DNA from: Basidiobolus meristosporus CBS 931.73
Lineage: Eukaryota; Basidiobolomycota; Basidiobolomycetes; Basidiobolales; Basidiobolaceae
Assembly: GCA_002104905.1 (NCBI GenBank)
Contig: MCFE01000791.1
Span: forward strand, 1-36,094
Length of the DNA stretch: 36,094 bases
Direction of reading: 5' to 3'
In this document: in pieces, positions 18,662 to 36,094 of the stretch
Numbering within the stretch: position 1 is the first letter of the stretch
Layout: every line of letters begins with the position of its first letter
Notes under the pieces: generated by a model
What the model was told of the DNA's origin: nothing
Databases searched by the model: none
The model's input: only the letters and a program-made list of their open reading frames with translations
Translations under genes and position numbers: made by a program

Positions 18662-19060
18662 TTAGCTACAGTTCCCAACATAGTTGACAGTCAGCTCGCC
18701 ATGGTTGACGTCATTATCCCCAGGATAGCCCAGTGGCACACTGCCACACACATTGCAGCCATGGTTCTGCAATTCGTGGAGTAGTGAGCATGCCTTGGAG
18801 GCAGAGATGGAGCTGCCGGTCTTCTGGGTGAAGGCGGCAATGCCACCAAGGATATGGCAGTTGGTTGCGATTCTTACCCCGGGTCCATAGATGTTCCCAC
18901 CAGGAAGACTGCAGACCTTAGCCACGAGTTGGTTCAGACTATTCCCAGTGGTGGCGCATTCACTACTCCCACGGCAATTGATGCCAAGGGCGTCGACCTG
19001 AGTCAAGAGCACCATGCTAAGGATGGCGGTGATTCCAGCAGTAACGGTTGAGGCTTTCAT
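18662..19060 (-). CDS. Kp4-family killer toxin-like secreted protein, copy 1
   Basis: An intronless gene for 132 residues. A signal peptide (about 1-24, ending VDA) precedes a mature domain of about 108 residues that matches the Kp4 killer-toxin family in its N-terminal GINC segment, cysteine pattern, and the HGCxVCGS and LTVNYV segments. Mature cysteines are at 29, 35, 50, 68, 91, 102, 105 and 131: eight, against the ten I recall for the viral prototype. Family members block calcium uptake in sensitive fungi and plants; that this protein does so is not shown. The TATA box (19110-19116) is 50 nt upstream of the ATG and AATAAA (18608-18613) about 50 nt past the stop. This copy has Thr at residue 11. 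The frame is intact and presumably expressed. Confidence 0.9.
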   Translation of the reverse strand: MKASTVTAGITAILSMVLLTQVDALGINCRGSSECATTGNSLNQLVAKVCSLPGGNIYGPGVRIATNCHILGGIAAFTQKTGSSISASKACSLLHELQNHGCNVCGSVPLGYPGDNDVNHGELTVNYVGNCS

Positions 19061-19109
19061 GTCGAAGTGCGGCTATCGGTTGATGGTCTTTGAGAGTCGG
19101 GACAGCACC

Positions 19110-19116
19110 TTATATA
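19110..19116 (-). promoter_or_regulatory. TATA box, killer-toxin copy 1
   Basis: TATATAA at 50 nt before the ATG, within an upstream block conserved in all five copies. Confidence 0.65.
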
Positions 19117-19249
19117 CCCAAGCCATTGCCAACAGACTGGGCATAGCCCACGCCTTGACGGCTTGCTGGTGGATGGACTGCATTGACGAAAATCATATAC
19201 AAAATAGGCGCGGCAGGAAGTCGAGTGTTTTTCCGTTCCATGTCACCTA

Positions 19250-20777
19250 GGTGCATCTTTTGTGCGACAAGTGAGCTTTATCACCCACAAGACCATCCGG
19301 ATTGAGGTGGTCTACTGGGGAGGCTGACCCGAACACCATCAATAGTGGTGCAGTATCCACCCCCACCCCCATATATCACTGGTCAAGCATACTGCTATTC
19401 ATTGGGCTTTTCGAGATGAATTGTGTAGCCTGGCCCTAAATGTGCCATTCCTCTCCCTACTGGAGTGTTCAGCCTGATGTTATTAGTAATCCAGGACTCG
19501 GTTCAGCTATTGAGCACTAAGAGATCAGCTTTGCTCTCGGCTATTATTTCTAAATATGTAATGGCGCACCATACCTCAGCTGCTCTCAAATGCGATAACT
19601 AGCCTACCCAGATCCTTTACTACCTAAATGCATATCTCATACACTGAAGTAATGATGGGGAAATTCCTCAAAGTTTCAGGTTATAACCGTTAAGTGGGAA
19701 AGTATCATCCATACCCTTTGAACTCTTAGATTCTAGGGTACTGGGATATTTGAATAATGGCCTATTACCGTGTTAGTTATCGAATTTGAGTCTTGGTCTT
19801 ACTTGACAGTTTCCTTCTTATTAGCTGGGAGACATTTACTCAGGAGAAATGAACCGAAAATTCTTTCTATTGGAATAGTAATATATGCAGAGGTAAGTTG
19901 TTGTGTAATCAGTGATGAAGATTACCGAAGTTGTATGGGATAGAGCTAGACATCGAGCCGTAATTTTCTGGCTGTGTACTAAAATGAAGATAAAATTCAC
20001 TGTCATGGTACCCTAAGAGATACCAAAGAAAGGTGCTTTTCTTCAACAAGAATCCCGCTTTAGGGGGCCTTAAAGTACCAAAGGTAAAGGCGATTGTATG
20101 TCTGTAGAATTCTGGCTTCAATAAAATTACATTGTCAAATGGATTAGATTGCAAATCATTACTTGATTGCGGTCAGGTACAAACTAGGTGAAGCGGGTAA
20201 AGCCGTTTGGCGTGTATTCAAGTCATATAACCAGAGGATCGCTGCCATTACTTTCTATCTTGTATAGCAGATACTAAGGAATCCCAAGGGTATAAAATCC
20301 AATGTCTAGTCATACACCAAGTTGTCGCATATTGCAATCGCCCAGCACTTGTATTAGCAAAGTGTTTATTTTCGTAAATCCGGACCGCATCTCTGTTGGC
20401 GTGGGCCCCAAACAAGTCATATGGGCAATTTTTTCGGAAAGAATGGGGTTTTCCGTGGTCTAAATAACAGTAGAAGTAGATGCTCTGCCTCATATGGCGC
20501 AAACCGAGTGACAGAAAAAGTGGATTTCGGTTGGGTGTTTTGATCCGAACTGAACAAAGAGAGTGGGGGATCGGTAAATACATTAAAAATCAAACATTGA
20601 AGAGTTCCGCTCGACGTTTACGACAATCGTGAATGTGAGCCAACTATGTGAATTTGCGTATCGATACTTCAGAGATACGGCTGTGATTGGTTCGCTACAG
20701 TGGAACGTTAGTGGTTTTTATGTGATACAGGGCGACCTAACCACTTCGACTCTTATGCATTGCTGAGGAAATGCTGG
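19250..20777. other. Spacer between killer-toxin copies 1 and 2
   Basis: The first ~350 bases are repeat-unit sequence shared with copies 2 and 4 (for example GGGCTTTTCGAGATG...GTGTAGCCTGGC). The middle is unique. 20620-20760 is a diverged block that recurs before copies 3, 4 and 5. The minus-strand frame 20248-20583 starts at ATG (111 codons) but resembles nothing; it is noted only as a possible relic. Confidence 0.45.
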
Positions 20778-21030
20778 GTACAATTGGCATTTTAAGACTT
20801 GTTCTGTTGATAGACTTATATAGGACCATTGTGTGACCTTGTTCATATGCTGGATAAGGGCCTCGCAATATACTACAACCTACCTAATGCTGGGCATGAC
20901 TGCTGATGATAATCAGGGAGGTCTACAGAAACCACTATTCTTTACTATGACACTTGGTATTGCATTCCGGATTGACTTTATTTCAAGGTAACTGTTCTCG
21001 CCAATTGGATAAGCCCACAGCAATCATGAT

Positions 21031-21429
21031 TTAGCTACAGTTCCCAACATAGTTGACAGTCAGCTCGCCATGGTTGACGTCATTATCCCCAGGATAGCCC
21101 AGTGGCACACTGCCACACACATTGCAGCCATGGTTCTGCAATTCGTGGAGTAGTGAGCATGCCTTGGAGGCAGTGATGGAGCTGCCGGTCTTCTGGGTGA
21201 AGGCGGCAATGCCACCAAGGATATGGCAGTTGGTTGCGATTCTTACCCCGGGTCCATAGATGTTCCCACCAGGAAGACTGCAGACCTTAGCCACGAGTTG
21301 GTTCAGACTATTTCCAGTGGTGGCGCATTCACTACTCCCGCGGCAATTGATGCCAAGGGCGTCGACCTGAGTCAAGAGCACCATGCTAAGGATGGCGGCG
21401 ATTCCAGCAGTAACGGTTGAGGCTTTCAT
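21031..21429 (-). CDS. Kp4-family killer toxin-like secreted protein, copy 2
   Basis: Same 132-residue architecture as copy 1 (signal peptide, eight-cysteine Kp4 domain). It differs by Ala at residue 11 and by Thr for Ser at residue 86, the only copy with that change. TATA box at 21479-21485 and AATAAA at 20977-20982 are at the same offsets as in copy 1. The upstream leader has two private substitutions, but the promoter block is otherwise the same. Intact frame. Confidence 0.9.
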   Translation of the reverse strand: MKASTVTAGIAAILSMVLLTQVDALGINCRGSSECATTGNSLNQLVAKVCSLPGGNIYGPGVRIATNCHILGGIAAFTQKTGSSITASKACSLLHELQNHGCNVCGSVPLGYPGDNDVNHGELTVNYVGNCS

Positions 21430-21478
21430 GTCGAAGTGCGGCTATCGATTGATGGTCGTTGAGAGTCGGGACGGCACC

Positions 21479-21485
21479 TTATATA
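21479..21485 (-). promoter_or_regulatory. TATA box, killer-toxin copy 2
   Basis: TATATAA, 50 nt upstream of the ATG. Confidence 0.65.
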
Positions 21486-22018
21486 CCCAAGCCATTGCCA
21501 ACAGACTGAGCATAGCCCACGCCTTGACGGCTTGCTCGTGGATGGACTGCATTGACGAAAATCATATACAAAATAGGCGCGGCAGGAAGTCGAGTGTTTT
21601 TCCGTTCCATGTCACCTAGGTGCATCTTTTGTGCGACAAGTGAGCTTTATCACCCACAAGGCCATCCGGATTGAGGTGGTCTGCTGGGGAGGCTGACCTG
21701 AACACCATCAATAGTGGTGCAGTATCCCCACTCACCCTCATATAATACTGGTCAAAAATACTGCTATTCATTGGGCTTTTCGAGATGGATTGTGTAGCCT
21801 GGCCCTAAATGTGCCATTCCTCTCCCTACTGGAGTGTTCAGCCTGATGTAATTAGTAAGCCGGAACCTGGATCTGCTGTTGCTCTACCTGTAGTTAGGTT
21901 TGCCCCGGCTATTATTTCTAAACATGTGATCATGGATCAGGAACTGACTATTCCACAATGTGATGGGATGCTCTATCCGATCATTTACAATCTTACTTTA
22001 TATTGCATATTCTGAACC

Positions 22019-22042
22019 ATATAATAATAATAATAATAATAA
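22019..22042 (+). repeat. (TAA)n microsatellite
   Basis: Seven ATA/TAA units at the right edge of the copy 2 duplicated segment. They are absent from the copy 4 segment at the matching place, so the duplication boundary coincides with the microsatellite. Confidence 0.8.
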
Positions 22043-22800
22043 AGGAATTCATCCAAGTTTCATATTAACGCATCTAAGTGAAGAAATATCATCATTTTCT
22101 TTTGAGCTCTGGGAGCCCATGATATATGGTTACTAGAGTATTTAAAGATTGACACGGTTACCCAGTTTGTGTTTGAGTCTGTGCAGCTAATTCTGCTTCT
22201 ATAGCACAGCTAGCCATCATAACACAGTAATTTTGTTCAGATTAGAGCTTAGCAAAGTCGATATACGAGATCCGGAGTTTTGATCGCAGCGCAGAGAGCT
22301 TGGCATCCAGGCCAAACAATATTATTACATAGAGAAAAGCCAAGGCAAACTGGTGTTGTCAGACAAAGCTGGGCCGTGTAGCCGTAGGGATCAGCAGTAA
22401 TGGCAGCTTCATTTAAAATCAATGCAGAAGTTTGAATATTATTTTTCAGCCAGTGTTGACGATGCTGAAGCAAGTTAGAAAGTGACAGATTGGCAAATGC
22501 TGCATAATAAAATCATAGAGCAGTTCGACTCAACTTTGGCGAGAACAATAAATTCGAGTGGTCTAGATAATTTTGCGTTTCGATGTTTCAAAGAGACGGC
22601 TGTAACTGGTAAATTACTGAAGAATGTTGGTGGTTTTCATGTGATACAGGGCGATCTAATCACCTTGGCACACATATATTGCTGAAAAAATTCTTGTAAC
22701 CCGAATGTACTACAGCTTGAGTAATGCTGGACATGACCACTGATGAAAATTAATCAGATCTACAGAAACCACTTTCCTTTAATACTCCACTTGGTATTGC
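22043..22800. other. Spacer between killer-toxin copies 2 and 3
   Basis: No supported gene. The block at about 22485-22690 (GCTGCATAATAAAATCATAG, then GATACAGGGCGAT) is homologous to blocks before copies 2, 4 and 5. Confidence 0.5.
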
Positions 22801-22867
22801 ATTTCAGATTGACTTTATTTCAAGGTGACTACTCTCGCCAATTGGATAAGCCCACAGCAATCATGAT

Positions 22868-23266
22868 TTAGCTACAGTTCCCAACATAGTTGACAGTCAG
22901 CTCGCCATGGTTGACGTCATTATCCCCGGGATAGCCCAGTGGCACACTGCCACACACATTGCAGCCATGGTTCTGCAATTCGTGGAGTAGTGAGCATGCC
23001 TTGGAGGCAGAGATGGAGCTGCCGGTCTTCTGGGTGAAGGCGGCAATGCCACCAAGGATATGGCAGTTGGTTGCGATTCTTACCCCGGGTCCATAGATGT
23101 TCCCACCAGGAAGACTGCAGACCTTAGCTACGAGTTGGTTCAGACTATTTCCAGTGGTGGCGCATTCACTACTCCCGCGGCAATTGATGCCAAGGGCGTC
23201 GACCTGAGTCAAGAGCACCATGCTAAGGATGGCGGCGATTCCAGCAGTAACGGTTGAGGCTTTCAT
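22868..23266 (-). CDS. Kp4-family killer toxin-like secreted protein, copy 3
   Basis: Same 132-residue secreted Kp4-type protein; its amino-acid sequence is identical to that of copy 4. TATA box at 23316-23322. It carries the CCC (Pro) and GTA (Val) synonymous variants shared with copy 4, but the CGC (Arg) variant shared with copy 2, a mosaic state. Intact frame with conserved promoter and 3' signals. Confidence 0.9.
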   Translation of the reverse strand: MKASTVTAGIAAILSMVLLTQVDALGINCRGSSECATTGNSLNQLVAKVCSLPGGNIYGPGVRIATNCHILGGIAAFTQKTGSSISASKACSLLHELQNHGCNVCGSVPLGYPGDNDVNHGELTVNYVGNCS

Positions 23267-23315
23267 GTCGAAGTGCGGCTATCGGTTGATGGTCTTTGAG
23301 AGTCGGGACGGCACC

Positions 23316-23322
23316 TTATATA
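23316..23322 (-). promoter_or_regulatory. TATA box, killer-toxin copy 3
   Basis: TATATAA, 50 nt upstream of the ATG. Confidence 0.65.
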
Positions 23323-23528
23323 CCCAAGCCATTGCCAACAGACTGAGCATAGCCCACGCCTTGACGGCTTGCTGGTGGATGGACTGCATTGACGAAAATC
23401 ATATACAAAATAGGCGCGGCAGGAAGTGGAGCATTTTTCCGTTCCATGTCACCTAGGTGCACCTTTTGTACGACAACTGAGTTTATCCACACCAACATCC
23501 CTACATGACTGGTTAATTGCATTGCTAT

Positions 23529-23559
23529 TCATATATATATATATATATATATATATACA
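23529..23559 (+). repeat. (AT)n microsatellite
   Basis: About 15 AT units. Homology of the copy 3 unit to the other units becomes poor around this tract. Confidence 0.85.
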
Positions 23560-24470
23560 GCATAGCCCTAAGCTCACTACACAACTCACTACCGTAGTGT
23601 TGAGCCGATGTGCATGGCGATCCAGGACTCGGCACTGCCATTGCGCACTAAGAGATCAGTTTTGCTCCCGGCTATTATTTCTAAGTAAGTGACAGCACAC
23701 CATGCTTTTTCTGTTTTAGAATGCGATAGCAAGCCTCCCCACAGCCTTGACTACCAGATCGCCTGTCCAATATTCTGAAGCAATCATTGGAAAATTCATG
23801 CAAGTTTCAGATTATCACCAATACCATTCGAACTCTTGAATTGCAGGTTACATAGGCAATAAAGCGGTTAAAGACTGACTTGGTTGCTGTTTTATAAAAT
23901 AAGTTGAGCTTGAAACACTGCTAGACATAGTCGGAGCAAGAAGAGCCAGTAGAAGCAAGCTCAAAAGGCAGTAGCAACGACTCATCACCCTAAATTATTT
24001 AAGATATTTGAACTAATTTATATCACTTCATTGTATTGTAGATGTAAAATCAATGGCATGAGACTTTAAATATGTACTCACAGTATATAGACAGCAAAGG
24101 TGGATTCCACAAAAGAAAGGCGTTAAAATGTGCGACTCTAACTGGTTACTATCATGGACGAATCGGGGAGTGTTTAGGAATCGGCTTTGTATATGAGGCT
24201 ACTAGCCATATTTGGCGATTATGGCGCATGGTGAGCTACCTTTCCTCATACATAGCCTCCGCATGGACCAAACCAAATGCCAGACAGAGCGGGTCTAGGT
24301 CAGGTGATTCGATCCCGACGATCGTAAGACAACGCTGTATCAGCAAGTACTTCAAAATATTAAAGTTTTCAGAGATTTGACTGTGATTGGCACATTATAG
24401 TGAAAGACTAGTAGTTTTCATATACTGCATACTGATCTACCCTCCTGGGTATTCCTGAGGATATATCGAG
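23560..24470. other. Spacer between killer-toxin copies 3 and 4
   Basis: 23620-23700 is repeat-unit sequence (GATCCAGGACTCGG...ATTATTTCTAA) shared with copy 1. The rest is largely unique. A plus-strand ATG frame (24072-24380, 102 codons) overlaps the degenerate shared block and has no family resemblance, so I do not call it a gene. Confidence 0.45.
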
Positions 24471-24722
24471 TACAATTTGCATTTTAAGACTTGTTCTGTT
24501 GATAGACTTATATAGGACCATTGTGTGACCTTGTTCATATGCTGGATAAGGGCCTCGCAATATACTACAACTTGCCTAATGCTGGGCATGACTGCTGATG
24601 AGAATCAGCCAGGTCTACAGAAACCACTATTCTTTACTACGACACTTGGTATTGCATTCCGGATTGACTTTATTTCAAGGTGACTGCTCTCGCCAATTGG
24701 ATAAGCCCACAGCAATCATGAT

Positions 24723-25121
24723 TTAGCTACAGTTCCCAACATAGTTGACAGTCAGCTCGCCATGGTTGACGTCATTATCCCCGGGATAGCCCAGTGGCAC
24801 ACTGCCACACACATTGCAGCCATGGTTCTGCAATTCGTGGAGTAGTGAGCATGCCTTGGAGGCAGAGATGGAGCTGCCGGTCTTCTGGGTGAAGGCGGCA
24901 ATGCCACCAAGGATATGGCAGTTGGTTGCGATTCTTACCCCGGGTCCATAGATGTTCCCACCAGGAAGACTGCAGACCTTAGCTACGAGTTGGTTCAGAC
25001 TATTTCCAGTGGTGGCGCATTCACTACTCCCACGGCAATTGATGCCAAGGGCGTCGACCTGAGTCAAGAGCACCATGCTAAGGATGGCGGCGATTCCAGC
25101 AGTAACGGTTGAGGCTTTCAT
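24723..25121 (-). CDS. Kp4-family killer toxin-like secreted protein, copy 4
   Basis: Same 132-residue secreted Kp4-type protein, identical in sequence to copy 3. The 5' leader has a one-base deletion (GTGCGCTATC for GTGCGGCTATC), so the TATA box (25170-25176) is 49 rather than 50 nt from the ATG. Although its flanks match copy 2, three of its coding-region variants match copy 3 instead, suggesting conversion of the gene body. Intact frame. Confidence 0.9.
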   Translation of the reverse strand: MKASTVTAGIAAILSMVLLTQVDALGINCRGSSECATTGNSLNQLVAKVCSLPGGNIYGPGVRIATNCHILGGIAAFTQKTGSSISASKACSLLHELQNHGCNVCGSVPLGYPGDNDVNHGELTVNYVGNCS

Positions 25122-25169
25122 GTCGAAGTGCGCTATCGGTTGATGGTCTTTGAGAGTCGGGACGGCACC

Positions 25170-25176
25170 TTATATA
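25170..25176 (-). promoter_or_regulatory. TATA box, killer-toxin copy 4
   Basis: TATATAA, 49 nt upstream of the ATG. Confidence 0.65.
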
Positions 25177-25710
25177 CCCAAGCCATTGCCAACAGACTGA
25201 GCATAGCCCACGCCTTGACGGCTTGCTCGTGGATGGACTGCATTGACGAAAATCATATACAAAATAGGCGCGGCAGGAAGTCGAGTGTTTTTCCGTTCCA
25301 TGTCACCTAGGTGCATCTTTTGTGCGACAAGTGAGCTTTATCACCCACAAGGCCATCCGGATTGAGGTGGTCTGCTGGGGAGGCTGACCTGAACACCATC
25401 AATAGTGGTGCAGTATCCCCACTCACCCTCATATAATACTGGTCAAAAATACTGCTATTCATTGGGCTTTTCGAGATGGATTGTGTAGCCTGGCCCTAAA
25501 TGTGCCATTCCTCTCCCTACTGGAGTGTTCAGCCTGATGTAATTAGTAAGCCGGAACCTGGATCTGCTATTGCTCTCCCTGTAGTTAGGTTTGCCCCGGC
25601 TATTATTTCTAAACATGTGATCATGGATTAGGAATTGACTATTCCGCAATGTGATGGGATGCTATATCCGATCATTTACAATCTTATTTTATGTTGTATC
25701 CTTTGAAACC

Positions 25711-27180
25711 ATGTTGTGTTACAGGTCTTGAAATACTCCCATCTTTAAGTGTAGGGATAGCTGAACTGGTAGCAATGTGCATCAGCCTGATTTTCGGGAC
25801 TGCGGAACTATACGAACTAGATTGAGCGGGAACAGTAGTATGCTATAATGATACAATAATCGATCGAGCCTGAGGTGCCGTCAGGCGTGATTGGATGATG
25901 AATGGCCCGGAAAGCCAGGTCTATAGGGTCAGCAGGATACCGATGTCGTTGCATGATACTTGCAACAAACAGCTGGGGGGGGGGTGAAGAAATCCTCTGT
26001 AAGTGATTAGCTGCATCTTAAGTCGTCAAGTACCATATTTGGGTAATATGACAGATGTCTAGACATGCTCTTCTGATTAACAAATACCCATCAACGACCA
26101 GTCAGAATTAACTAATAATCTACAACAGGCATTGACCACCCCGCAAACCATTGAACAACACCCGTCTTCATTAAATCAGGTTATTGCGTTTGCCAGCCAC
26201 GACGAAATAACCATTGGAAATTCTCGAATGTTTGACGAAGTTGAACATGAACACATTTACCCGTTGATCATGGCTTTATACCTACTCACAATATGGGGAA
26301 CAAGACTAAAAGTAATCCACCATCACATCCCTTTCTCTAAAAAGATGTCTATAACCGTATTCCAACGCAAATTCACAATCTACCTCAGCCCATGCCAACA
26401 TATGCAACGATACAAATACAAACAAACCAACTTTTAGCGAGATATGAAATACACAGACCGGAATAGTACTGACCCAAAGTGATTACACACACACATCAAC
26501 CACGATGAAACAATAGTACACCTGATATAAATCACACCAACCAAACCCATAATAAACAATGGCCATCTAAGCTCTTCTGATTAAGAAACAGCCTCCCCAT
26601 TTACCCAAACCAAGCAGCTTACAATCCACAATATTCTTGATCGATTATTTCATAAGAGCTCATGGGAGACAGAAAAAGTTGGATAGTAAACGTTGTTAAG
26701 TTAGGCGCTGAATCAATGCTGTATAGCAAATATAAATTCTGAAGAAATGTAGAACAGTTGAAATCACTAACTCTGAGCAATATTCCCTCGTACATAACCA
26801 TGGCACGAATCGAATTAAATACAGGAAAAATTTTGTTCTGTTGGGTGACTCGATCCCATCCGAAGAAAACGGCAGATCAGCGAATGCTGTAGAGTAAAAT
26901 CATCGGAGAGTTCGACACGCCATATTTGACAACCATGCATTCAAGTGAAAAATACGATTTTGGTTTCAATGCTTCGAAGATATGGCTGCGATTGGAGCAT
27001 GACTTTGGCATATTAGTAGATTTGATGTTTTACAGGTTGATAAAGTGGGCTCAGGGCATGTACATGACATAAAAGGCTGGATATAATTGGCAAGCAATCC
27101 ACATGACCCGGCTTATTCTGTTGATAGGCTCTGTGGGGCAGTGCATGACCTTCTTCACATGCTGGATGAGGGTCTCGTAA
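25711..27180. other. Spacer between killer-toxin copies 4 and 5
   Basis: Holds a 10-G run near 25975, a compositionally odd A/C-rich insert flanked by 14-bp direct repeats (26067-26584), and at 26840-27040 the degenerate block found before other copies. No supported gene; the plus frame at 26132-26437 starts at TTG. Confidence 0.45.
26067..26584 (+). repeat. A/C-rich segment bounded by 14-bp direct repeats
   Basis: GCTCTTCTGATTAA occurs at 26067-26080 and 26571-26584. The segment between is poor in G on the plus strand, unlike its surroundings. It could be an insertion or a degenerate element; no coding domain was recognised. Confidence 0.35.
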
Positions 27181-27342
27181 CATGCTACAACTTGCGTAAT
27201 GCTGGGCATGACTGCTGATGAGAATCAGCCAGGTCTACAGAAACCACTATTCTTTACTACGACACTTGGTATTGCATTCCAGATTGACTTTATTTCAAGG
27301 TGACTGCTCTCGCCAATTGGATAAGCCCACAGCAATCATGAT

Positions 27343-27741
27343 TTAGCTACAGTTCCCAACATAGTTGACAGTCAGCTCGCCATGGTTGACGTCATTATCC
27401 CCGGGATAGCCCAGTGGCACACTGCCACACACATTGCAGCCATGGTTCTGCAATTCGTGGAGTAGTGAGCATGCCTTGGAGGCAGAGATGGAGCTGCCGG
27501 TCTTCTGGGTGAAGGCGGCAATGCCACCAAGGATATGGCAGTTGGTTGCGATTCTTACCCCGGGTCCATAGATGTTCCCACCAGGAAGACTGCAGACCTT
27601 AGCCACGAGTTGGTTCAGACTATTTCCAGTGGTGGCGCATTCACTACTCCCACGGCAATTGATGCCAAGGGCGTCGACCTGAGTCAAGAGCACCATGCTA
27701 AGGATGGCGGTGATTCCAGCAGTAATGGTTGAGGCTTTCAT
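27343..27741 (-). CDS. Kp4-family killer toxin-like secreted protein, copy 5
   Basis: Same 132-residue secreted Kp4-type protein. It has Ile for Val at residue 6 (signal peptide) and Thr at residue 11, the latter shared with copy 1 at the opposite end of the array. TATA box at 27791-27797 and AATAAA downstream at the usual offsets. Its upstream flank diverges from the other units after about 200 bp. Intact frame; the copy nearest the retroelement array. Confidence 0.9.
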   Translation of the reverse strand: MKASTITAGITAILSMVLLTQVDALGINCRGSSECATTGNSLNQLVAKVCSLPGGNIYGPGVRIATNCHILGGIAAFTQKTGSSISASKACSLLHELQNHGCNVCGSVPLGYPGDNDVNHGELTVNYVGNCS

Positions 27742-27790
27742 GTCGAAGTGCGGCTATCGGTTGATGGTCTTTGAGAGTCGGGACGGCACC

Positions 27791-27929: not shown

Positions 27930-28498
27930 AAGTGCACCTTTTGTACGACAAACGCGCTCTATTACTCACTAGACCATTTCCAATCACCTAACCCTATGGA
28001 GACTGATCCGAGTGTCACTAATGGTGATGCGGATTCAACATTTACTTCCCTACCGTTCGAGATGAGTTGCATACACTAATCCTATGCGCGCTATTCCATT
28101 TATTGCTGAAGATTTTAGCCTGATATAAATAGTTACATAGAACTTAATTTATATTGTGGCATATGTTTTGGCTGGTATCTCTGGACATATATTGGGGTAC
28201 CACACCCTTTCTATGGGGCAAGCAAGGTATACCGCTTTCCTTAATACTCTATATTAAACTGCTACGCTAGTTTCCCACTAATTATGTCTTTATGAATTAT
28301 CATGCGGCATTGGCTGGGGTAAATCCGGCACTGTTTGAATCAATTGAGTTAATCTGCTATAGGAATAAGTTTATCATCTATACCTCAGTGGAGAAAACAA
28401 ATGTTTGTTGGTTTGAAGTAGAATTTTTGGATACTGCCAACCCTGGTTTAATTAAACAAGCTGATGTAGTCTGTTAATTGTTGGTGCTGACAGCACAA
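27930..28498. other. Unique sequence between killer array and retroelement array
   Basis: Degenerate continuation of the killer repeat unit to about 28080, then AT-rich unique sequence. A short plus-strand ATG frame (28292-28477, 61 codons) has no recognisable domain. Confidence 0.45.
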
Positions 28499-28511
28499 GG
28501 GTTGGGGGGGG
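28499..28511 (+). repeat. Telomere-like G-rich tract at the left edge of the LINE array
   Basis: GGGTTGGGGGGGG joins unique sequence to the 3' tail of LINE copy D. It is a degenerate TTAGGG/TTGGGG form of the tract present at every array junction. Confidence 0.5.
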
Positions 28512-29113
28512 AGACAGTCACTAACAGGTGAAATCTTAATTTCAGTTGAAACAAAGAAGCCAGCCCTATTGTTGTAGGTTTGATATAAAGGTGTGTAGGT
28601 GAGAGGAATTTGTAGTAAGTTAATAAGGAGAGAAGATAGTTCTCAAGTGTTCAAGACACTGCTCAGTGGAAAGGGGGGTGGCAATAGAGGTAAGAATGAC
28701 TTGTGAACAACATTAATAAGGGGAATATGATCAGGATTGATATTCATCATAAAGGGGGTGTGCTGTTTCAGATATTGCTGCCAAAGGTCTGTCAAGTACC
28801 TCAGGTAGGCTAGCTTGGCTTTTATGACTGCAGAATATAATAAGCAAATTTCTTGACTTCAGGATCTCCAAGTATAGTTCAACAGCAGGAGCCAGGTAAA
28901 GTGTGGTGTGTTCTCTTCCATGTCTTAATCAGTGGGTTGTTGCAGTGGTGAAGTCTGAGATATAATCTGGTTCTAAGGTAGAGAAGTCTGATCTTATAGG
29001 GCATAAACCCAAAACAATCCAGAAACAGAGACCTGACAAGGAGGGTGAGAGAGGTACTGGAGAAGCATTGCAACTTGGACCAAAGCAGATTTCTGTCAAC
29101 TGAATCAAAGGCC
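28512..29113 (-). mobile_element. LINE copy D, 5'-truncated and internally deleted
   Basis: On the minus strand the copy starts in reverse-transcriptase motif A (AFDSVDRNLLWSKLQ), runs to LLVRSLFLD, then jumps directly to FGFMPYKIRLLY and continues to the 3' tail. Compared with copy F about 600 bp, including the FADD catalytic box, are missing. It ends in the AAAGATTTCACC-type tail and a C-run tract. Dead. Confidence 0.85.
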
Positions 29114-29131
29114 TTAGGGTTAGGGTTAGGG
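29114..29131 (+). repeat. Perfect (TTAGGG)3 at LINE junction D/C
   Basis: Three perfect telomere-type repeats lie between the 5'-truncated end of LINE D and the 3' tail of LINE C. The G-rich strand reads left to right. Confidence 0.9.
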
Positions 29132-29237
29132 GGAGGGAAAGTCACCAAGTTGGTGAAATCTTTATTTGAGTTAAGAACTAATCTAAGTACAAATAAAGAA
29201 GCCAATTAAGAGGTCTAGAACCTCTCTAATAAGTAAT

Positions 29238-31979
29238 CTAATTTATGTTTTTTTCATCTCTAATGTTTGTTTCAGCAAAGTAAAGCTCATCAGGGGTAAA
29301 TATGAAATTCAAGAGTTTTGGGGGAAGTACAAATTGTAGATGTTTGTGATCAATATAATCCAAGACTGGAGCCCAGCCTGGGATTAGGTGCAGTAGGAAA
29401 GGTGTGTGGACTTGTAAGTAGCTCTGCCACATAGATCTTAGATGGTCCTGAGCCAGTAGTCCTGGTTTCTCAGCTTTTTGAAGTTTTGAAGCAAGCTGTG
29501 TTACTACAGCAGAGCCAACCTGGGTGTGCCAGCAAGAAGATTTCAGGGAGGAGTTAGATTTAAGCCATTGTTTGATGGAGAGGTTATGTGATTTCTGAAA
29601 TTTGACTAGGAAGGAAGCACATAGATAGACCATTTGGATTTGGTATGGGTAGAACCCAAAAGCTCCACTAGTTGCATGGATATAGGGAGATACTGGAAGA
29701 TAAGGTACCAAGGATCTGATACACTGATGGAGAAATTTATCCAGGTGGTGAAGTTCTCTGGAGGTTAGGGGTATAATGTGGAGACCAAATTCAAGTACTG
29801 GCAGTACATACTGCTTCAGAAGTATAGGGATTGTTTGAATTGGAGTGTCTGGAGTGACTACTACCAGAAGCTTTTTGAGAGCCTTTTGGGCAAGATGGAT
29901 CCTATTATTCAGGTGGAGCTTTGAGTCAATCCCATGTTGACAAAACGGCAGACCTAGATACATTGCAGTTTGTTGTGGCAGAATGCTAGTGTTCTGTATA
30001 GTTGTAGTGCACCCAATTGGGACTGTCTTGGAAATTGAGAGTGAGAGGTTGTTGGCAGCCAAGTACTTCTTAATGATGGCAGAGTCTGCTATGGGATTAG
30101 GAGTAGCAATCTTGATATCATCCACATAGAGAGTTAGTAGTGGATAGGGAGAGTCTGGTGAGGGGCCTTTTGGAAATAAAGAAAAGTTGTGTAGGTATAT
30201 CACAAATAGTAAGGGACCTAGTACAGATCCTTGGACTACTCCATTTGGAACCTCATAAGTCTTGGATGTGCAACTTGGATGCCAAATTTTGGCTGAGTTC
30301 TCACAAAATAGAGAACATACAAGAAGGGTCATTTGTAGTGTGGTAACTGCTAATAGCTTTCTCCAAAGCAGAGCTCTGTCCACAGAGTCAAAGGCTTTAG
30401 TAATGTCAAACAGAATGGTTGGCTATGAGAATTGAAGTGAATGATCATGGCTTAGCACTACAGCCATATCCAAGGAGAGTTTGGGCAAGAAGCCAAGCTG
30501 TGAAGGATGGAATGGATATAGTTGAGATTGCAAGGATCTTGCTATTATAAGCTCAAAGATTTTCTGGCAGGTTGGTAGGAGTGAAACTGGCCAGTAAGAA
30601 CCTGGGAGTGAGTGTTTCCCCTTCCCTTTGTATAAGGGTATTACATTTGCCTGTGACCAGGCCTTTGGGGTAGTCAATTGTTGGGCACAGATAGAGTAGA
30701 ATGGGATAAGTAAGTGACTCATTTTGGAGTAGCACACTCGGAGTAGATTTTAGGTAATCAAGTCATGTCCAGGTGCAGTATTTGCAGGAAGCTTCTTCAA
30801 AATTTTCTCCAGAAGCTTGGCTGAAATCAAAATTGGAGATGTTGGACTGCTGGATATGGTACCAGTATGGTAGAAAGGAGGAGTGGGATGCACGGATGAA
30901 TCAAAGAATATAGGGGCCAGTTTGTCTGGTGATGGTATACTCCTTGCTTGTGGTCTCATGGCTTTGTATACTCTTGATATGGACCTTGTGGTGGCATTCA
31001 TATTTACTAAGGGCAAGGTATCCATGATATGAGCCCATAATCTAGTATGCTCAGTAATCTGTAGTGACTTGGAGTAGGAGATTGCGCTTTCCAGGAGGTT
31101 CTGTGTTTTTGGGTTAGGGAAACATAGGTAGCTGGAATATAAGGCAGAAATGATGGATTTCCATTTAAGTTGGTTTGCAGATGGCTTTTGGTAGCACTTG
31201 GTAGGCAGGGCCAGACAGCCAGTGATTATGATGAAATGCTGGTAAAATAGCCATAATGCATTTATATCATCATAAATCCATGTAGGTAAGCTGGGAAATG
31301 CATATTCTGTAAGCAAGGATAGGTAGTTGGCAAAGTCCTGTGTCTGTGATACTGAAGCTTTGGCTGGCAGGTTTGTAAATGGCTGAAGAAGGGTGCCAGT
31401 TGGTAGGGTTTTTCTGGCAGAAATGATAATATGTATTGGCTTGTGATCAGATTTCTCTAGTGAACCACAGCTTATATCCTCTGGAATGCTTGTAACCTGG
31501 TGGATGTACTGTAAGGCAGCTGGAGTAGCTGTTACCCAGTCAACACAACGTTGAGCTTGCTGAGTGTTTACAGTGACCAGATGGTTTTGTTGGAGGAACT
31601 TTGTAAAGTGCTCCTCTTGGGTCCTAAGTCTGGATGAAATAGTGGTGATATTTTCAGGGTGGGGAATATTATATCTCCCACTACCATACAAGGGATTGAT
31701 GAGCTGTTAATGAACTCTGATGTGGCCAAGAAAATTGCCAGTGTTATGGAGTTAGACAGAGATGGAGGGAGATAGATAGTAATGGCTACTATTAGTTGGA
31801 AGTGTTAGAGCATAGCAGTAATACTCATAGATGATGGATACATTTGCTGAGGGTGCAAGCTTAGAAGATGAAAGAGCAATGAGTGCCATTGAGTGAGCTG
31901 GAAATTTTGGGTGAGCAGATGAATATGCATTCAGTCTAGAGGGAAGTTTTGGCAACTTAACATCAATTAGTAGGAGCAA
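29238..31979 (-). pseudogene. LINE C ORF2: APE endonuclease plus reverse transcriptase, broken
   Basis: Pieces in three frames. The endonuclease part has a degenerate VVGDI (GDFN-like) box and a clear SDHKPI box (in the piece 31691-30750). Reverse transcriptase begins around TAPGHDLI, then VIPLYKGKGKHSLPGSYWPV (30737-30423). A stop (LQFS*) precedes FDITKAFDSVDR, after which a 381-codon open frame (30383-29238) carries NGVVQGSVLGP and the catalytic YVDD, and runs through the thumb and C-terminal region. No RNase H domain was seen. The clade is not assigned. Confidence 0.85.
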
Positions 31980-32064
31980 GGAATATTCCTTTTTCAGTAA
32001 GTTTTCTAATTCAGCTACTGTTGGAGTGATGGAGTTGCAATTGAGCTAAGAGTATGTTCTGTAG

Positions 32065-32600
32065 TCAGGCAGACTCTGAGGTTGCCTGTTCCTGCTGAAA
32101 CTCTTGCACTGCCCTTTGTAAATTTCCAGAATTATTCCACAACTCTTCAAATGGAGCTTGTGTAATGTCTTTCAGGATTCTAATTGCTTCCTCTTTCAAG
32201 AAGTAGGCCACATCATAGGTTGGAGCCTGTTTCTTAATGGCAGCAAAGAATAGCCATAATTGCCATGTGAGCTGGGGCTTGTTGAATATTCCTGGCTCAG
32301 TGTCCATTGACTCTGGTGGAATGATTGTGAATTTGGTAGGCACCCAGTTAAGATTTTTTGCCAGATACTTAGTCAATGCAGTGGAGACGTTTCTGTCTAC
32401 AATCATTTCTAGGATCTTTCCTCTTCTCCAAGCTAGGTTAACAATTTTTGAAGTGTCATTATTCAGAGAGTAGATGTACGTCTGATGTTTGATATGGTAG
32501 TCCATGGAACATTGGCAAAGTATAGCCAGGACCAATTCTGGAGCTGAGGTAAGTTTGCTGGAGGCTTATAGGTAGACTTCCTGGCAGGTTGTGTGGCAGG
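32065..32600 (-). pseudogene. LINE C ORF1 (Gag-like), 5'-truncated and frameshifted
   Basis: The frame ending at 32065 has SKIVNLAWRRGKILEMIVD, which aligns with SKIVNMRF...LEVVLDKS of element A. Upstream, a second frame gives WSWLYFANV, matching WAVCYFANV of A, so a frameshift lies near 32465. No zinc knuckle is visible in the remaining part. Confidence 0.6.
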
Positions 32601-32624
32601 CTTTAGTGTTCCAAGGTAGCAAGT

Positions 32625-32633
32625 TGGTTAGGG
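32625..32633 (+). repeat. Telomere-like tract at LINE junction C/F
   Basis: TTGGTTAGGG, then more Gs, between the truncated 5' end of LINE C and the tail of LINE F (TTAGGG at 32628-32633). Confidence 0.6.
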
Positions 32634-34270
32634 GGGAGACAGTCACCAACAGGTGAAATCTTTATTTCAGTTGAAACAAAGAAGCCAGCGCTACTGTTGT
32701 AGCTTTGATACAAGAGTGTGTAGCTGAGGGGAATTTGTAGGTAAGTTAATAAGAAGTGATGATAGTTCTTCAGTGCTCAAGACACTGTTCAGTGGAAGGG
32801 GGGTAGCAAGAGAGGTAAGAATGACTTGTGAACAACATTAATGAGGGGAATGTGATAAGGATTGATATTCATCATAAAGGGAGTGTGCTGCGGCAGATAT
32901 TGCTGCCAAAGGTCTGTCAAGTACTTCAGGTAGGCCAGCTTGGGTTTTTCTGACTGCAAAATATAGTTGAGCAAACTCTTGACTTCAAGATCTCCAAGTA
33001 TAGTTCTCCAGCAGGAGCCAGGCATGTAGTGTGGTGTGTTCTCTTCCAGGCCTTAATCAGTGGGTTGTTGCAGTTGTGAATGTCTGAGATATAATCTGGT
33101 TCTACGGTAGAGAAGTCTGATCTTATAGGGCATAAACCCAAAAGCACCAAGAATAGCATGTCTGTAGGGGCATTCAGGCAAATGAGGCACCAAGGAGGTA
33201 ATGCACCATACTGCAAACTTGTCAAGCTTAGTGCAGTCTCTAGAAGTAAGAGAGAGAAGCGGTAAGCCAAATTCCAGGACAGGGAAGACAAACTGCTTGA
33301 GTAGAAGGAGGCAGCTGGGTGCTGAAGTTGTAGGAGGAGTAACAGCCAGTAGCTTGTGGAGTGCCTGTCTTGCCAGGATAATTCTCTTCTTCAGGTGTGC
33401 TCCAGAGTCTAGTCCAGTAGGAAGGAAAGGAAAGCCAAGATATGTAGCAGAAACCTGAGCAGGTAGAGTGGAGTTCTCCAAGTTGATGGGAGAGCCCAAA
33501 GGTACTGTCTTTGCAATGGAAAGCTGGAGATTATTCTTCTGCAGATACTGGTGGATGGTCTGGGAGTCTTGTTGCACATTGGAGGAGGATATTCTGATGT
33601 CATCAGCAAAGAGAGTAACCAGGCAGTCAGCTGAGAGTCTTGGGAAGTCATTCAGGAAGATGGCAAACAGTATAGGACCAAGCACAGAGCCTTGAACCAC
33701 TCCATTAGGAACTGAGAACACAGCTGATTGCTCACTTGGGTGCAGAATTCTTGCTTGTGGATCCAGAAACAGAGACCTGACAAGGAGGGTGAGAGAGGTA
33801 CTGGAGAAGCATTGCAACTTGGACCAAAGCAGATTTCTGTCAACTGAATCAAAGGCCTTAGTAATATCAAACAGAACAGAGGGATACTTGCACTGGAGAG
33901 AGTGATCTTGGCTAAGTATGACTGCATATTCCAAGGAGAGGCCAGGAACAAAGCCAAACTGTGCAGGATGAAACTTGAGGGAGTCAGAGTAGAGCTCCTG
34001 AGCAAGCAGAAGCTCAAACACCTTTCTGCAGGTGGGCAGCAGAGATATTGGCCTGTAGGAGCTAGGATCCAGGTGCTTTCCTTTACCCTTGTACAGTGGC
34101 AGAACATTTGCAAAGACCATTCCTCAGGAGTAGAAAGCTGGGCTGAGCATTGCTGAAACAGTGGAAGCAGAAGTGCAGACATGGCCTTGGTACTAGTCTT
34201 CAGAAGCTCATAAGAGATTGTGTCCACACTTAGGTGTAGTATTATAGTAAGGCTAGAAAGTTAGAGAGCA
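32634..34270 (-). mobile_element. LINE copy F, 5'-truncated within reverse transcriptase
   Basis: A 1.6-kb 3' portion of a LINE of the same family as B and D. It begins near the start of the reverse-transcriptase domain and ends in the shared tail. Confidence 0.85.
32789..34240 (-). pseudogene. LINE F reverse transcriptase, frameshifted
   Basis: A 355-codon frame (34120-33053) has KGKGKHLDPSSYRPISLLPT, FGFVPG, motif A FDITKAFDSVD, NGVVQGSVLGP and the catalytic FADD box, so most of the polymerase core is intact. The N-terminal part (TISYELLK...STPEEWS) is in another frame because a T is missing near 34120. The C-terminal part (NNPLIKAWKRTHHT...) is in a third frame after a base insertion near 33078 relative to copy B. 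Not functional as it stands. Confidence 0.85.
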
Positions 34271-34280
34271 GGGGTTAGGG
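34271..34280 (+). repeat. Telomere-like tract at junction F/SINE
   Basis: GGGGTTAGGG followed by GGG joins the truncated 5' end of LINE F to the SINE tail. Confidence 0.6.
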
Positions 34281-34800
34281 GGGAGGAAAGTCACCAAGTG
34301 GTGAAATCTTTATTTACTTATGACAAGTATCTAAAGAAGCCAAGTTAATCTGAAGTAATTCCTAGAAAGCTAGGTCTGAGAGATATCTTCCTGGTAAGCC
34401 AGGTCTGAGAGTTGAGAAGCTGAGTGGTACTATATTTCCTAGTTAGCTAGGTCTGAGAGAGGTTTCCTGGAAAGCCAGGCCTGAGAAGTGAGAATCTGAA
34501 TATATCTGAGCTAAGTTATACTGGTTTGCGGTAGCTGAATTGTGGCCGGAATGGCCAGTAGACTGGGGGAACTGAGATGAATTTCTGGGCAATCACTGGC
34601 CAAATTTACTAGGCAAATCTGACCAATTAGCATTTCAAGGATTTCAGCCAATCAGAGCCTTTACTTTGCCTGATGGTTGATCAAGCCATCTCCCAATGAG
34701 CACACATCAATTTATTGATCAAATTTTGCTGGATCCAGGATTTGAACCCACAACCATGGGTATGGAAGGGTTAGGGATAACCACAAGGCTAAGTGTTCTT
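34281..34800 (-). mobile_element. tRNA-headed SINE with LINE-type 3' tail
   Basis: On the minus strand, a box A-like TAGCCTTGTGG (34791-34781) and a perfect box B GGTTCAAATCC (34748-34738) are 43 nt apart, as in a tRNA. A unique body follows, then four hairpin repeats (34361-34479). The tail GGCTTCTTTA...AAATAAAGATTTCACC-ACTT-GGTG is shared with the neighbouring LINEs. The element is about 520 bp and codes for nothing. It looks full length. Sharing the tail implies it is mobilised by the LINE machinery (inference by analogy with known SINE/LINE pairs). Confidence 0.75.
34361..34479 (+). repeat. Four covarying mini-hairpin repeats in the SINE
   Basis: CCTAG-AAAG-CTAGG (34361-34374), CCTGG-TAAG-CCAGG (34390-34403), CCTAG-TTAG-CTAGG (34438-34451) and CCTGG-AAAG-CCAGG (34466-34479), each followed by a YCTGAGA motif. 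The 77-bp pair unit is duplicated. Confidence 0.85.
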
Positions 34801-34808
34801 GGTTAGGG
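34801..34808 (+). repeat. Telomere-like tract at junction SINE/B
   Basis: GGTTAGGG and further Gs join the tRNA-like 5' end of the SINE to the tail of LINE B. Confidence 0.6.
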
Positions 34809-35337
34809 GGGGAGACAGTCACCAACAGGTGAAATCTTTATTTCAGTTGAAACAAAGAAGCCAGCGCTACTGTTGTAGCTTTGATACAAGAGTGTGTAGC
34901 TGAGGGGAATTTGTAGGTAAGTTAATAAGAAGTGATGATAGTTCTTCAGTGCTCAAGACACTGTTCAGTGGGAAGGGGGGTAGCAAGAGAGGTAAGAATG
35001 ACTTGTGAACAACATTAATGAGGGGAATGTGATAAGGATTGATATTCATCATAAAGGGAGTGTGCTGCTGCAGATATTGCTGCCAAAGGTCTGTCAAGTA
35101 CTTCAGGTAGGCCAGCTTGGGTTTTTCTGACTGCAGAATATAGTGAGCAAACTTCTTGACTTCAGGATCTCCAAGTATAGTTCTCCAGCAGGAGCCAGGT
35201 GTTGTGTGATGTGTTCTCTTCCAGGCCTTAATCAGTGGGTTGTTGCAGTTGTGAAGTCTGAGGTATAATCTGGTTCTAAGGTAGAGAAGTCTGATCTTAT
35301 AGGCATAAACCCAAAAGCACCAAGAATAGCATGTCTG
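34809..35337 (-). mobile_element. LINE copy B, short 3' fragment
   Basis: A 0.53-kb 3' end closely matching 32634-33160 of LINE F. Its frame (KIRLLYLRTRLYLRLHNCNN...INPYHIPLINVV...) is open to the stop at 34867 and covers the LINE C-terminal region only. Confidence 0.85.
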
Positions 35338-35348
35338 TAGGGTTAGGG
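35338..35348 (+). repeat. Telomere-like tract at junction B/A
   Basis: TAGGGTTAGGG between the truncated 5' end of LINE B and the tail of element A. Confidence 0.7.
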
Positions 35349-36094
35349 GAGGGAAAGTCACCAAGGTAGGTGAAATCTTTATTTGATTTCAGACAAGTCT
35401 AACTACAAATAAAGAAGCCAGCTGGGAATAGAAGATTCCCAAAGTAAACACTAAGTTGAATATGAATAAATCTAAGCTAAAGTTAAGGCAGTATCCCAGA
35501 GTACACTGGAGTTCAGGTTCATGGGGGAGTGAAGTAGATAAGCTTGAGAGATATAATAATCTTTGAGGAAGTGGGTAACAGCAGGTGAAGGGGAGTTTTT
35601 GATAAGTGAAGTGAATCTTGAGAGCAGAGATTCCTCTAATGAGAAGGTCTTGTAAACTGGAGAATCAGGAAACTCTTTAAAGGCATGGTCAGTAGGTTCC
35701 CAGTAAAACTGGTCAGAGACATTTTGAGAGAATTGTTTAGCAATACTTTTGTCAAGTACTACCTCCAGAGTGTGATGGTTGATAAATCTCATGTTAACAA
35801 TCTTGGATAAATTGTAACCTTGTTGCTTGAGATACATCCTATGCTCAGATATAGGAATAAACTCCACATTGGCAAAGTAGCAGACAGCCCAGTCAGTAGC
35901 AGGAGGCAAATCAGAAGTGGCAGGAAACTTTCTTTTAGTCTTGGGAGGAGCAGCAGGATGTCTTGAGGAAGCAGGAACAGACTTTTTGACAGCTTCAGAG
36001 TAGGAAGAGTGAGCAGGAGCAGATGATTCTTGGGGAGTCTTGTTGGCAGGAAGAGTTGGCACAGGGACAATAGATTCTTGCAGATCAGAGAAGG
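35349..36094 (-). mobile_element. Element A: ORF1 followed directly by the LINE 3' tail, partial
   Basis: The window ends inside it. Its 3' UTR (GGCTTCTTTATTTGTA...CAAATAAAGATTTCACC...GGTG) matches LINE C, but the stop of an ORF1-like frame lies only ~125 nt before the end, with no ORF2 between. Confidence 0.75.
35472..36094 (-). CDS. ORF1/Gag-like protein of element A, 5'-partial
   Basis: The open frame continues past the right edge of the window, so the start is not visible; the internal GTG at 36062 is not a credible start. The visible ~206 residues have a Ser/Pro/Ala/Lys-rich, probably disordered N-terminal part (SAPAHSSYSEAVKKSVPASS). A compact segment follows (WAVCYFANVEFIPISEHRMY...SKIVNMRF...LEVVLDKS) that aligns with ORF1 of LINE C, then a helical C-terminus ending in DTALTLA. 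By position and similarity it is the nucleic-acid-binding ORF1 of the LINE family. No zinc knuckle is visible in this part. It is the only uninterrupted retroelement frame in the array, suggesting a younger insertion. Confidence 0.65.
   Translation of the reverse strand, partial: FSDLQESIVPVPTLPANKTPQESSAPAHSSYSEAVKKSVPASSRHPAAPPKTKRKFPATSDLPPATDWAVCYFANVEFIPISEHRMYLKQQGYNLSKIVNMRFINHHTLEVVLDKSIAKQFSQNVSDQFYWEPTDHAFKEFPDSPVYKTFSLEESLLSRFTSLIKNSPSPAVTHFLKDYYISQAYLLHSPMNLNSSVLWDTALTLA

Follow-up and report, generated by a model that had tools for sequence, protein, structure and literature searches.

Retroelements that live at telomeres are known from scattered lineages, and here we describe a further case in an early-diverging fungus, Basidiobolus meristosporus CBS 931.73 (phylum Basidiobolomycota). 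It is an array of long interspersed nuclear elements (LINEs), a short one (SINE) and an element, A, that carries only a first open reading frame (ORF1), and it closes a 36,094-bp stretch, the window, which is the entire contig C1081 of an 89.0-Mb assembly of 1311 contigs. In the HeT-A/TART/TAHRE arrays of Drosophila the 3' ends likewise lie inward and 5' sequence is lost, and TRAS elements have the orientation of the elements here. LINE/SINE pairs with a common 3' hairpin, such as eel UnaL2/UnaSINE1, scatter through the genome, and elements of the CRE clade carry C-terminal restriction-like endonuclease motifs (CCHC and PDx12-14D). MoTeR1/MoTeR2 of Magnaporthe oryzae and the FoTeRs of Fusarium oxysporum are, like our elements, fungal telomere retroelements. 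According to the passages of the literature cited here and below, MoTeRs point their 5' ends toward the chromosome end, pair an autonomous with a short element with common ends, and enclose short inner TTAGGG (PMC7367193, PMC12857005). Their truncated 5' ends bear telomere seeds of 1-7 nt at 17/23 (PMC7367193), and MoTeR and FoTeR group with CRE elements and carry a restriction-like endonuclease domain (PMC12857005). HeT-A is described as encoding no reverse transcriptase (RT) and relying on another element (PMC4700185), SART and TRAS as inserting in opposite orientations (PMC10088271), SART1 as ending in poly(A) (PMC7265360), and Zepp (Chlorella), GilM/GilT (Giardia) and Athena (rotifers) as telomere-associated (PMC10088271).

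The kind of system is already known from MoTeR, FoTeR, TRAS/SART, HeT-A/TART, Zepp and GilM, and the two features by which we tested for a telomere-targeted retrotransposon without long terminal repeats, concentration at ends in a single orientation and a LINE-type RT, are both present in Basidiobolus. Unlike MoTeR and FoTeR, the system has an endonuclease-like domain, possibly of the apurinic endonuclease (APE) type, before the RT, and no CRE-type C-terminal motif was found in the second open reading frame (ORF2) of its LINE F; it also has a separate ORF1, a SINE and at least four families. Element A, as an ORF1-only partner, recalls HeT-A/TART, but Drosophila lacks telomerase, whereas here a telomerase domain is coded and the ends are capped with TTAGGG, junctions carry no poly(A) and a SINE takes part. 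TRAS/SART of Bombyx and other insects are LINEs aimed at telomere repeats, as these appear to be; by contrast poly(A) was not seen at our junctions, whose inner tracts measure ~10 nt. As in UnaL2/UnaSINE1, a tail hairpin is common to LINE and SINE, but the scored SINE copies lie at chromosome ends. Zepp, GilM/GilT and Athena belong to other lineages and are likened here by kind rather than by sequence.

We consider it probable that the array was built by a telomere-targeted retroelement system, in which LINE, ORF1-only and SINE copies were added onto shortened chromosome ends that telomerase then healed. Its six elements, D, C, F, SINE, B and A, follow one another head-to-tail and on the minus strand throughout; an earlier note, made from the letters of the window, had described these repeats in this order, and they are present as described. 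It had also described tails joined directly to the next body, which holds at most junctions (a scrap of ~44 bp separates the truncated F from the SINE), and 5' truncation of D, C, F and B, which is seen in all four, D being in addition composite and internally deleted. The TTAGGG-like tract that it assigned to every junction is present, though at 28499 only in degenerate form. Element boundaries were drawn with the basic local alignment search tool (BLAST), with F, B, D and A aligned to copies elsewhere in the genome, and C and the SINE to the window's own copies. With at most 3 mismatches allowed, the window has 6 matches to the tail motif GGTGAAATCTTTATTT, all on the plus strand, against a chance expectation of 0.57, and TTAGGG-like 12-mers (at most 2 mismatches, both strands) number 13 against 3.0 expected, only some of them within the array.

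Across the genome the families are concentrated at contig ends in one orientation. We scored 40 A tails (of 572 candidates), 45 SINE pieces (of 434), 40 C pieces (of 186) and 114 F RT matches (of 1045), setting aside three partial A matches (two on C350, one on C771). Contig sizes follow from the contig numbers, which are the alphabetical order of size-ranked scaffold numbers, a rule that holds for all 52 exactly known; the others were interpolated. Of the 192 copies scored on contigs of ~40 kb or more, 182 have the end toward which their 5' side points within 10 kb, where ~18 would be expected to (A 28/31, SINE 36/38, C 28/30 and F 90/93, with chance expectations of 2.5, 3.6, 3.2 and 9.0), and on all contigs 221 of 239 do (A 36/40, SINE 42/45, C 36/40, F 107/114). 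The exact tail pattern has 1522 matches genome-wide, 1399 forward and 123 reverse, and its backwards control zero. Among the first 100 listed (contigs C1 to ~C96), 85 lie within 10 kb of the outward end and none is more than 25 kb from it; the 100 include 37/37 on 11 contigs above ~100 kb (~4.5 expected), contig sizes being partly interpolated in this count. This tabulation, which the earlier note had proposed, agrees with its placement of the tails at chromosome ends. Long-read contigs may fold back at their ends, and a few reversed copies do lie on small contigs (C193, C217), but an assembly artefact or chance arrangement of repeats can hardly account for an orientation rule with these counts on more than 100 contigs.

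The elements also run into telomeres. TTAGGG follows an element and extends to the contig end, or close to it, at L001, L002, L046, L049 to L053, L055, L057, L059, C2 and C212; the predicted course of the array out to TTAGGG is thus seen in sister arrays (L001, L002, C2, C212), whereas the window's own contig ends inside A, short of the telomere. For an element-blind view we sampled every fifth entry in a list of 100 TTAGGG array starts, out of 111 genome-wide. Nineteen of the 20 stand at a contig end, and 15 of these 19 telomeres abut an element directly (F 9, A 3, SINE 3); among the remaining four, SINE and C lie within 200 bp of one, and the other three lack any element there. The sampling pattern fixes the starting phase, so the sample represents one phase class and was excluded from the seed-homology counts below. 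Fourfold TTAGGG occurs 7428 times forward and 81 times reverse in the whole assembly, which places telomeres nearly all at right contig ends, and a rough estimate gives a few hundred telomeric ends. At C2 the array (L064, C2:258500-260000) begins beside an open frame that by eye resembles an integrase-bearing retroelement, as if the chromosome had broken there.

The telomeric tracts inside the arrays are far shorter than those at the ends. We examined 90 junctions in 37 loci, having dropped L083 as a repeat of L049 on the same contig. With the last GGG counted, inner tracts are up to 30 nt long, with a median of 10 nt (74/90 at most 12 nt), and 82 of the 90 contain at least TTAGGG; terminal tracts at 19 contig ends measure 116-297 nt, with a median of 204. 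The query for the A loci starts with a telomere repeat and so biases the A junctions (37/90) toward carrying one, and the 53 F, SINE and C junctions, which are free of that bias, have a median of 8 nt and a maximum of 30. Since inner tracts are ~20 times shorter than terminal ones, either the ends were first shortened or insertion fell at the base of the tract. The attachment to telomere ends envisaged in the earlier note is supported by location, orientation and tails, but plain attachment to a normal telomere end is insufficient.

Insertion at the base is the chief rival to end attachment. An endonuclease would nick the TTAGGG strand among its first few repeats and RNA would be copied from the nick, leaving the distal TTAGGG as cap, in the manner of TRAS or MoTeR, and repeated insertion at the base would build the array. 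The orientation of the elements matches priming at a G-strand nick, telomere-like bases adjoin nearly every tail, and relatives conserve the endonuclease-like domain: GDxN and what are presumably the catalytic Asp and His are kept, and Glu is replaced by Asp in F and the two relatives that extend to that site. Yet nicking anywhere in a 200-bp tract predicts long and variable inner tracts, not the short ones found. Moreover, the element bodies of the loci examined hold 31 GGGTTAGGG motifs (16 SINE, 15 LINE), none of them interrupted by another element, so short duplex TTAGGG by itself is probably not the target and nicking would require strict specificity for the base; we regard it as unlikely. 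Forty A motifs were kept out of the 31, since the rule by which they count as uninterrupted is loose and three A cut points lie just outside the GGGTTAGG motif of the 101-bp unit.

The truncated ends beside the inner tracts suggest healing by telomerase. We could place 61 of the 90 junctions, leaving out 29 whose upstream body matches none of the four references. Twelve fall at a recurrent 5' end (10 SINE, 1 F and the window's own C, which serves as its own reference) and 49 are truncated at scattered points. In these 49 the stretch shared with the repeat that follows averages 1.84 nt and is 1 nt or more in 40/49, where random placement gives a mean of 0.38; when three recurrent A ends are dropped the mean is 1.80 (n=46), which none of 2000 simulations reached. 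Twelve true telomere starts found through A have a mean of 1.83 (at least 1 nt in 9), or, with four recurrent ends removed, 1.38 (n=8, at least 1 nt in 5/8, chance 0.007). Because their seed homology resembles that of true telomere ends, the inner junctions look like former chromosome ends once healed by telomerase. Template jumping, in which RT passes between RNAs in one event and TTAGGG is carried on the RNA 3' ends, would also produce junction homology, short tracts and mixed families within an array; the similar homology at true telomere ends, together with tracts that range from 0 to 5 repeat units, makes it highly improbable.

Another possibility is that recombination or break-induced replication between ends multiplies the arrays, with little current retrotransposition. 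Such copying is described for MoTeR arrays in the cited passages (PMC7367193), and two structures in this genome, an interstitial reversed array on C726 and a telomere-flanked scrap on C1202, indicate rearrangement. However, truncation points differ between junctions (all mapped F cut points are distinct, and nearly all of A), the same outer end recurs for the SINE (10 mapped junctions), F and A, F keeps ORF2 open at 922 aa in many copies and A is conserved (below), and we judge this explanation quite improbable. The C726 structure (L065, C726:57000-60500) is a reversed inner F-SINE array that has a base of its own, set in other DNA, and lies ~10 kb short of the right contig end. The C1202 scrap is an internal 143-bp piece of A with TTAGGG on both sides, in a dispersed repeat, and it shows no target-site duplication, a point that the earlier note had proposed to check. 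Three copies of the repeat that lack the A piece (L088-L090, not alleles, drawn from 40 scored matches) have neither TTAGGG nor a duplication, and hold two bases absent from the filled site. Internal insertion with target-site duplication is thus unsupported in this one readable case, and since TTAGGG flanks both sides while the related empty sites carry neither TTAGGG nor a duplication, the scrap resembles a break mended with telomeric DNA. MoTeR relics with TTAGGG on both sides are comparable (PMC7367193, in the passage cited).

All families end in a common 3' tail, AAATAAAGATTTCACC-loop-GGTGAC with a loop of 4 to 6 nt, followed by a C-run. In the alignment its stem is constant across four families and a fifth tail; in the divergent copy L007 both sides of one stem pair are changed, and in the window's D one pair is broken. 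The fifth tail family (L042 225-260 and 2035-2095) has the same hairpin beside a different flank, GGGGGATGATCATCACCAAAGGGTGAAATC. Poly(A) between the 3' end and the telomere repeat was seen at none of the junctions examined. On its RNA strand the SINE has a perfect B box, GGTTCAAATCC, at 55 and, matched only under a loosened pattern, an A-box-like TAGCCTTGTGG at position 12. ARAGORN calls no tRNA in it and Rfam gives only below-threshold matches, but with A and B boxes at tRNA spacing it would be a SINE of the RNA polymerase III (pol III) type.

A full-length copy of F on C212 encodes an ORF1 of 502 aa from Met and an ORF2 of 922 aa, and is followed by terminal TTAGGG; by manual count, 32 of 114 listed F rows have an open frame of exactly 922 aa. 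Domain and motif scans of ORF2 covered 906 of the 922 aa, the last 16 residues being absent, and identified RVT_1 (2.2e-25), with LINE-1 ORF2p as the best solved relative (3.7e-13). Over 42% of its length, the F RT matches a protein of Basidiobolus meristosporus CBS 931.73 at 98% identity. The endonuclease match (PF14529, 3.4e-4) is weak and under the cut-off. GDLN, VDW and SDH are kept in F, however, and GDxN, VDW and SDH in three relatives 54-57% identical over this part; where QE(T) would be expected, F and the two relatives long enough to include it (P0121, P0122) read IDV, Asp for Glu. At the motif positions and with the residue roles that we presume, the APE-type catalytic set is by eye in place (Asn, Asp/Asn, Asp and His), apart from Asp for Glu. 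The motif search found no CCHC, and the sole PD...D match precedes the RT.

Element A encodes a protein of 242 aa, intact in 13 copies among the loci examined, that is 35% identical to the C-terminal part of F ORF1 (E 3e-21); no RT was seen in A. Judged from a ratio of nonsynonymous to synonymous polymorphism (pN/pS) of 0.27 over the 13 copies (44 synonymous and 38 other variable codons), the protein is under purifying selection. A relative in Basidiobolus ranarum (49% identity over 67%) raises the possibility that the telomere element system may be older than one species. At its 5' end A has a variable number of 101-bp tandem units (e.g. L054 2400-3103), and 5' tandem units of this sort are likened to promoter monomers. 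FoTeRs have variable number tandem repeats that may be compared with them (PMC12857005, in the passage cited). The genome also codes a telomerase RNA-binding domain, over the cut-off, in two pieces (C880:173109-173423), the second with one internal stop, possibly an intron; because this domain is coded, the retroelement system probably acts alongside telomerase and does not replace it.

Under end attachment, autonomous LINEs (F, and C), with ORF1 and an RT-bearing ORF2 and, in F, the endonuclease-like domain, would provide an RT that A and the SINE borrow in trans via the common hairpin tail. The 3' ends of regular copies face inward, so first-strand synthesis would start at the TTAGGG 3' end (G strand), the natural chromosome end, and run outward from an end shortened to a few repeats. 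In the primer pairing proposed in the earlier note, an RNA ending in CCCTAACCC would anneal to the G overhang. Junctions vary both in the G-run and in the number of repeat units (0-5), and from this we suggest that the RNA itself stops at the C-run following the hairpin, the TTAGGG being part of the target. The new outer end, full-length or broken back, would be healed by telomerase through homology of a few nt, gain ~200 bp of TTAGGG, shorten again and take the next element.

Several observations weigh against this scheme. The short inner tracts fit cutting near the telomere base equally well, and F retains an endonuclease-like domain, for which an element primed at chromosome ends would have no need. 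Eight of the 90 junctions have a strict tract that falls short of TTAGGG, most of them with TTAGGG-like bases just before it. The sample of true telomere starts on which the terminal seed homology rests is small, and copying of arrays between ends, as in Magnaporthe, could also occur here. Finally, the outward end is over 10 kb away for 18 of 239 scored copies, those beyond 12 kb being C466:103352, C1202:59290, C424:311140, C424:308147, C1201:251313, C558:96493, C193:13514 and C726:57803 (sizes of C424, C1201 and C558 interpolated).

If end attachment holds, a telomerase-bearing fungus may even have independently evolved a telomere economy like that of HeT-A/TART, with a LINE, an ORF1-only helper and a pol III SINE copied directly onto shortened ends, an idea we offer tentatively and would not yet favor; were it true, a SINE transcript would extend chromosomes and telomerase would merely finish the cap. 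Among the titles and abstract openings listed by open-access literature searches, with subscription journals outside their scope, and in the passages cited, neither a SINE restricted to telomeres nor any account of telomere elements in Basidiobolus came up. LINEs with RT, a conserved ORF1-only element and a SINE occupy most of the chromosome ends sampled in this early-diverging fungus, which also codes telomerase. Sequencing alone here opens the questions of how work is divided between telomerase and retroelement addition, and of whether the tail alone can aim a SINE at chromosome ends.

Table 1. Coordinates of the array components in the window
Feature	Position	Strand	Remarks
Shared 3' tail	28527..35384	-	cores at 28527, 29152, 32652, 34300, 34828, 35369
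Degenerate tract GGGTTGGGG	at 28499		3' side of D; reads GGGTTGGGGGGGG
Element D	28506-29014 + 29017-29117	-	5'-truncated, internally deleted LINE F copy; array base; BLAST to F of C212
Junction tract TTAGGGTTAGGGTTAGG	29114..29130	+	between D and C
LINE C	29131-32627	-	5'-truncated within ORF1
LINE C RT frame	29238-30422	-	RVT_1, 4.5e-12
LINE C frame	30750-31706	-	by eye, PHPEN and SDH motifs resembling endonuclease part of F; nothing over the Pfam cut-off
LINE C ORF1, 3' part	32065-32565	-	
LINE F	32631-34229	-	5'-truncated; F 1-1598 of 4564, 98.7%
F RT frame	33053-34123	-	RVT_1, 4.9e-26
Scrap	34230..34273		~44 bp; resembles another subtelomeric repeat (by eye)
SINE	34280-34802	-	5' end common to other copies; LINE-type tail
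Element B	34807-35342	-	5'-truncated LINE F; F 1-537 at 99.4%; 3' tail present
Element A	35347-36094	-	ORF1-only; frame 35472-36092 runs off contig

Inward of the array lie genes for a heavy-metal ATPase, a CAP protein and five near-identical KP4-like proteins, the last in tandem on the minus strand (18662-27753; Pfam tested on one). The last KP4-like repeat unit stops ~500 bp short of the array, and the flank at 28060-28510 has no second copy in the genome. At the base of the array, D joins F 1-511 at 91% identity to F 1129-1229 at 100%; 617 bp of F are missing between the pieces, with no tail between them or on the second, which could reflect either an internal deletion plus conversion or a template jump. 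The repeat GGTGTAGGTGTTATAGTAAGGGCTAGG...GGGGGTCTGGGGGACGCAGTCCCC, which the scrap at 34230-34273 resembles, lies distal to arrays at L004 1-100, L006 2560-3103 and L008 1-380, and in L008 it is joined via TTAGGG.

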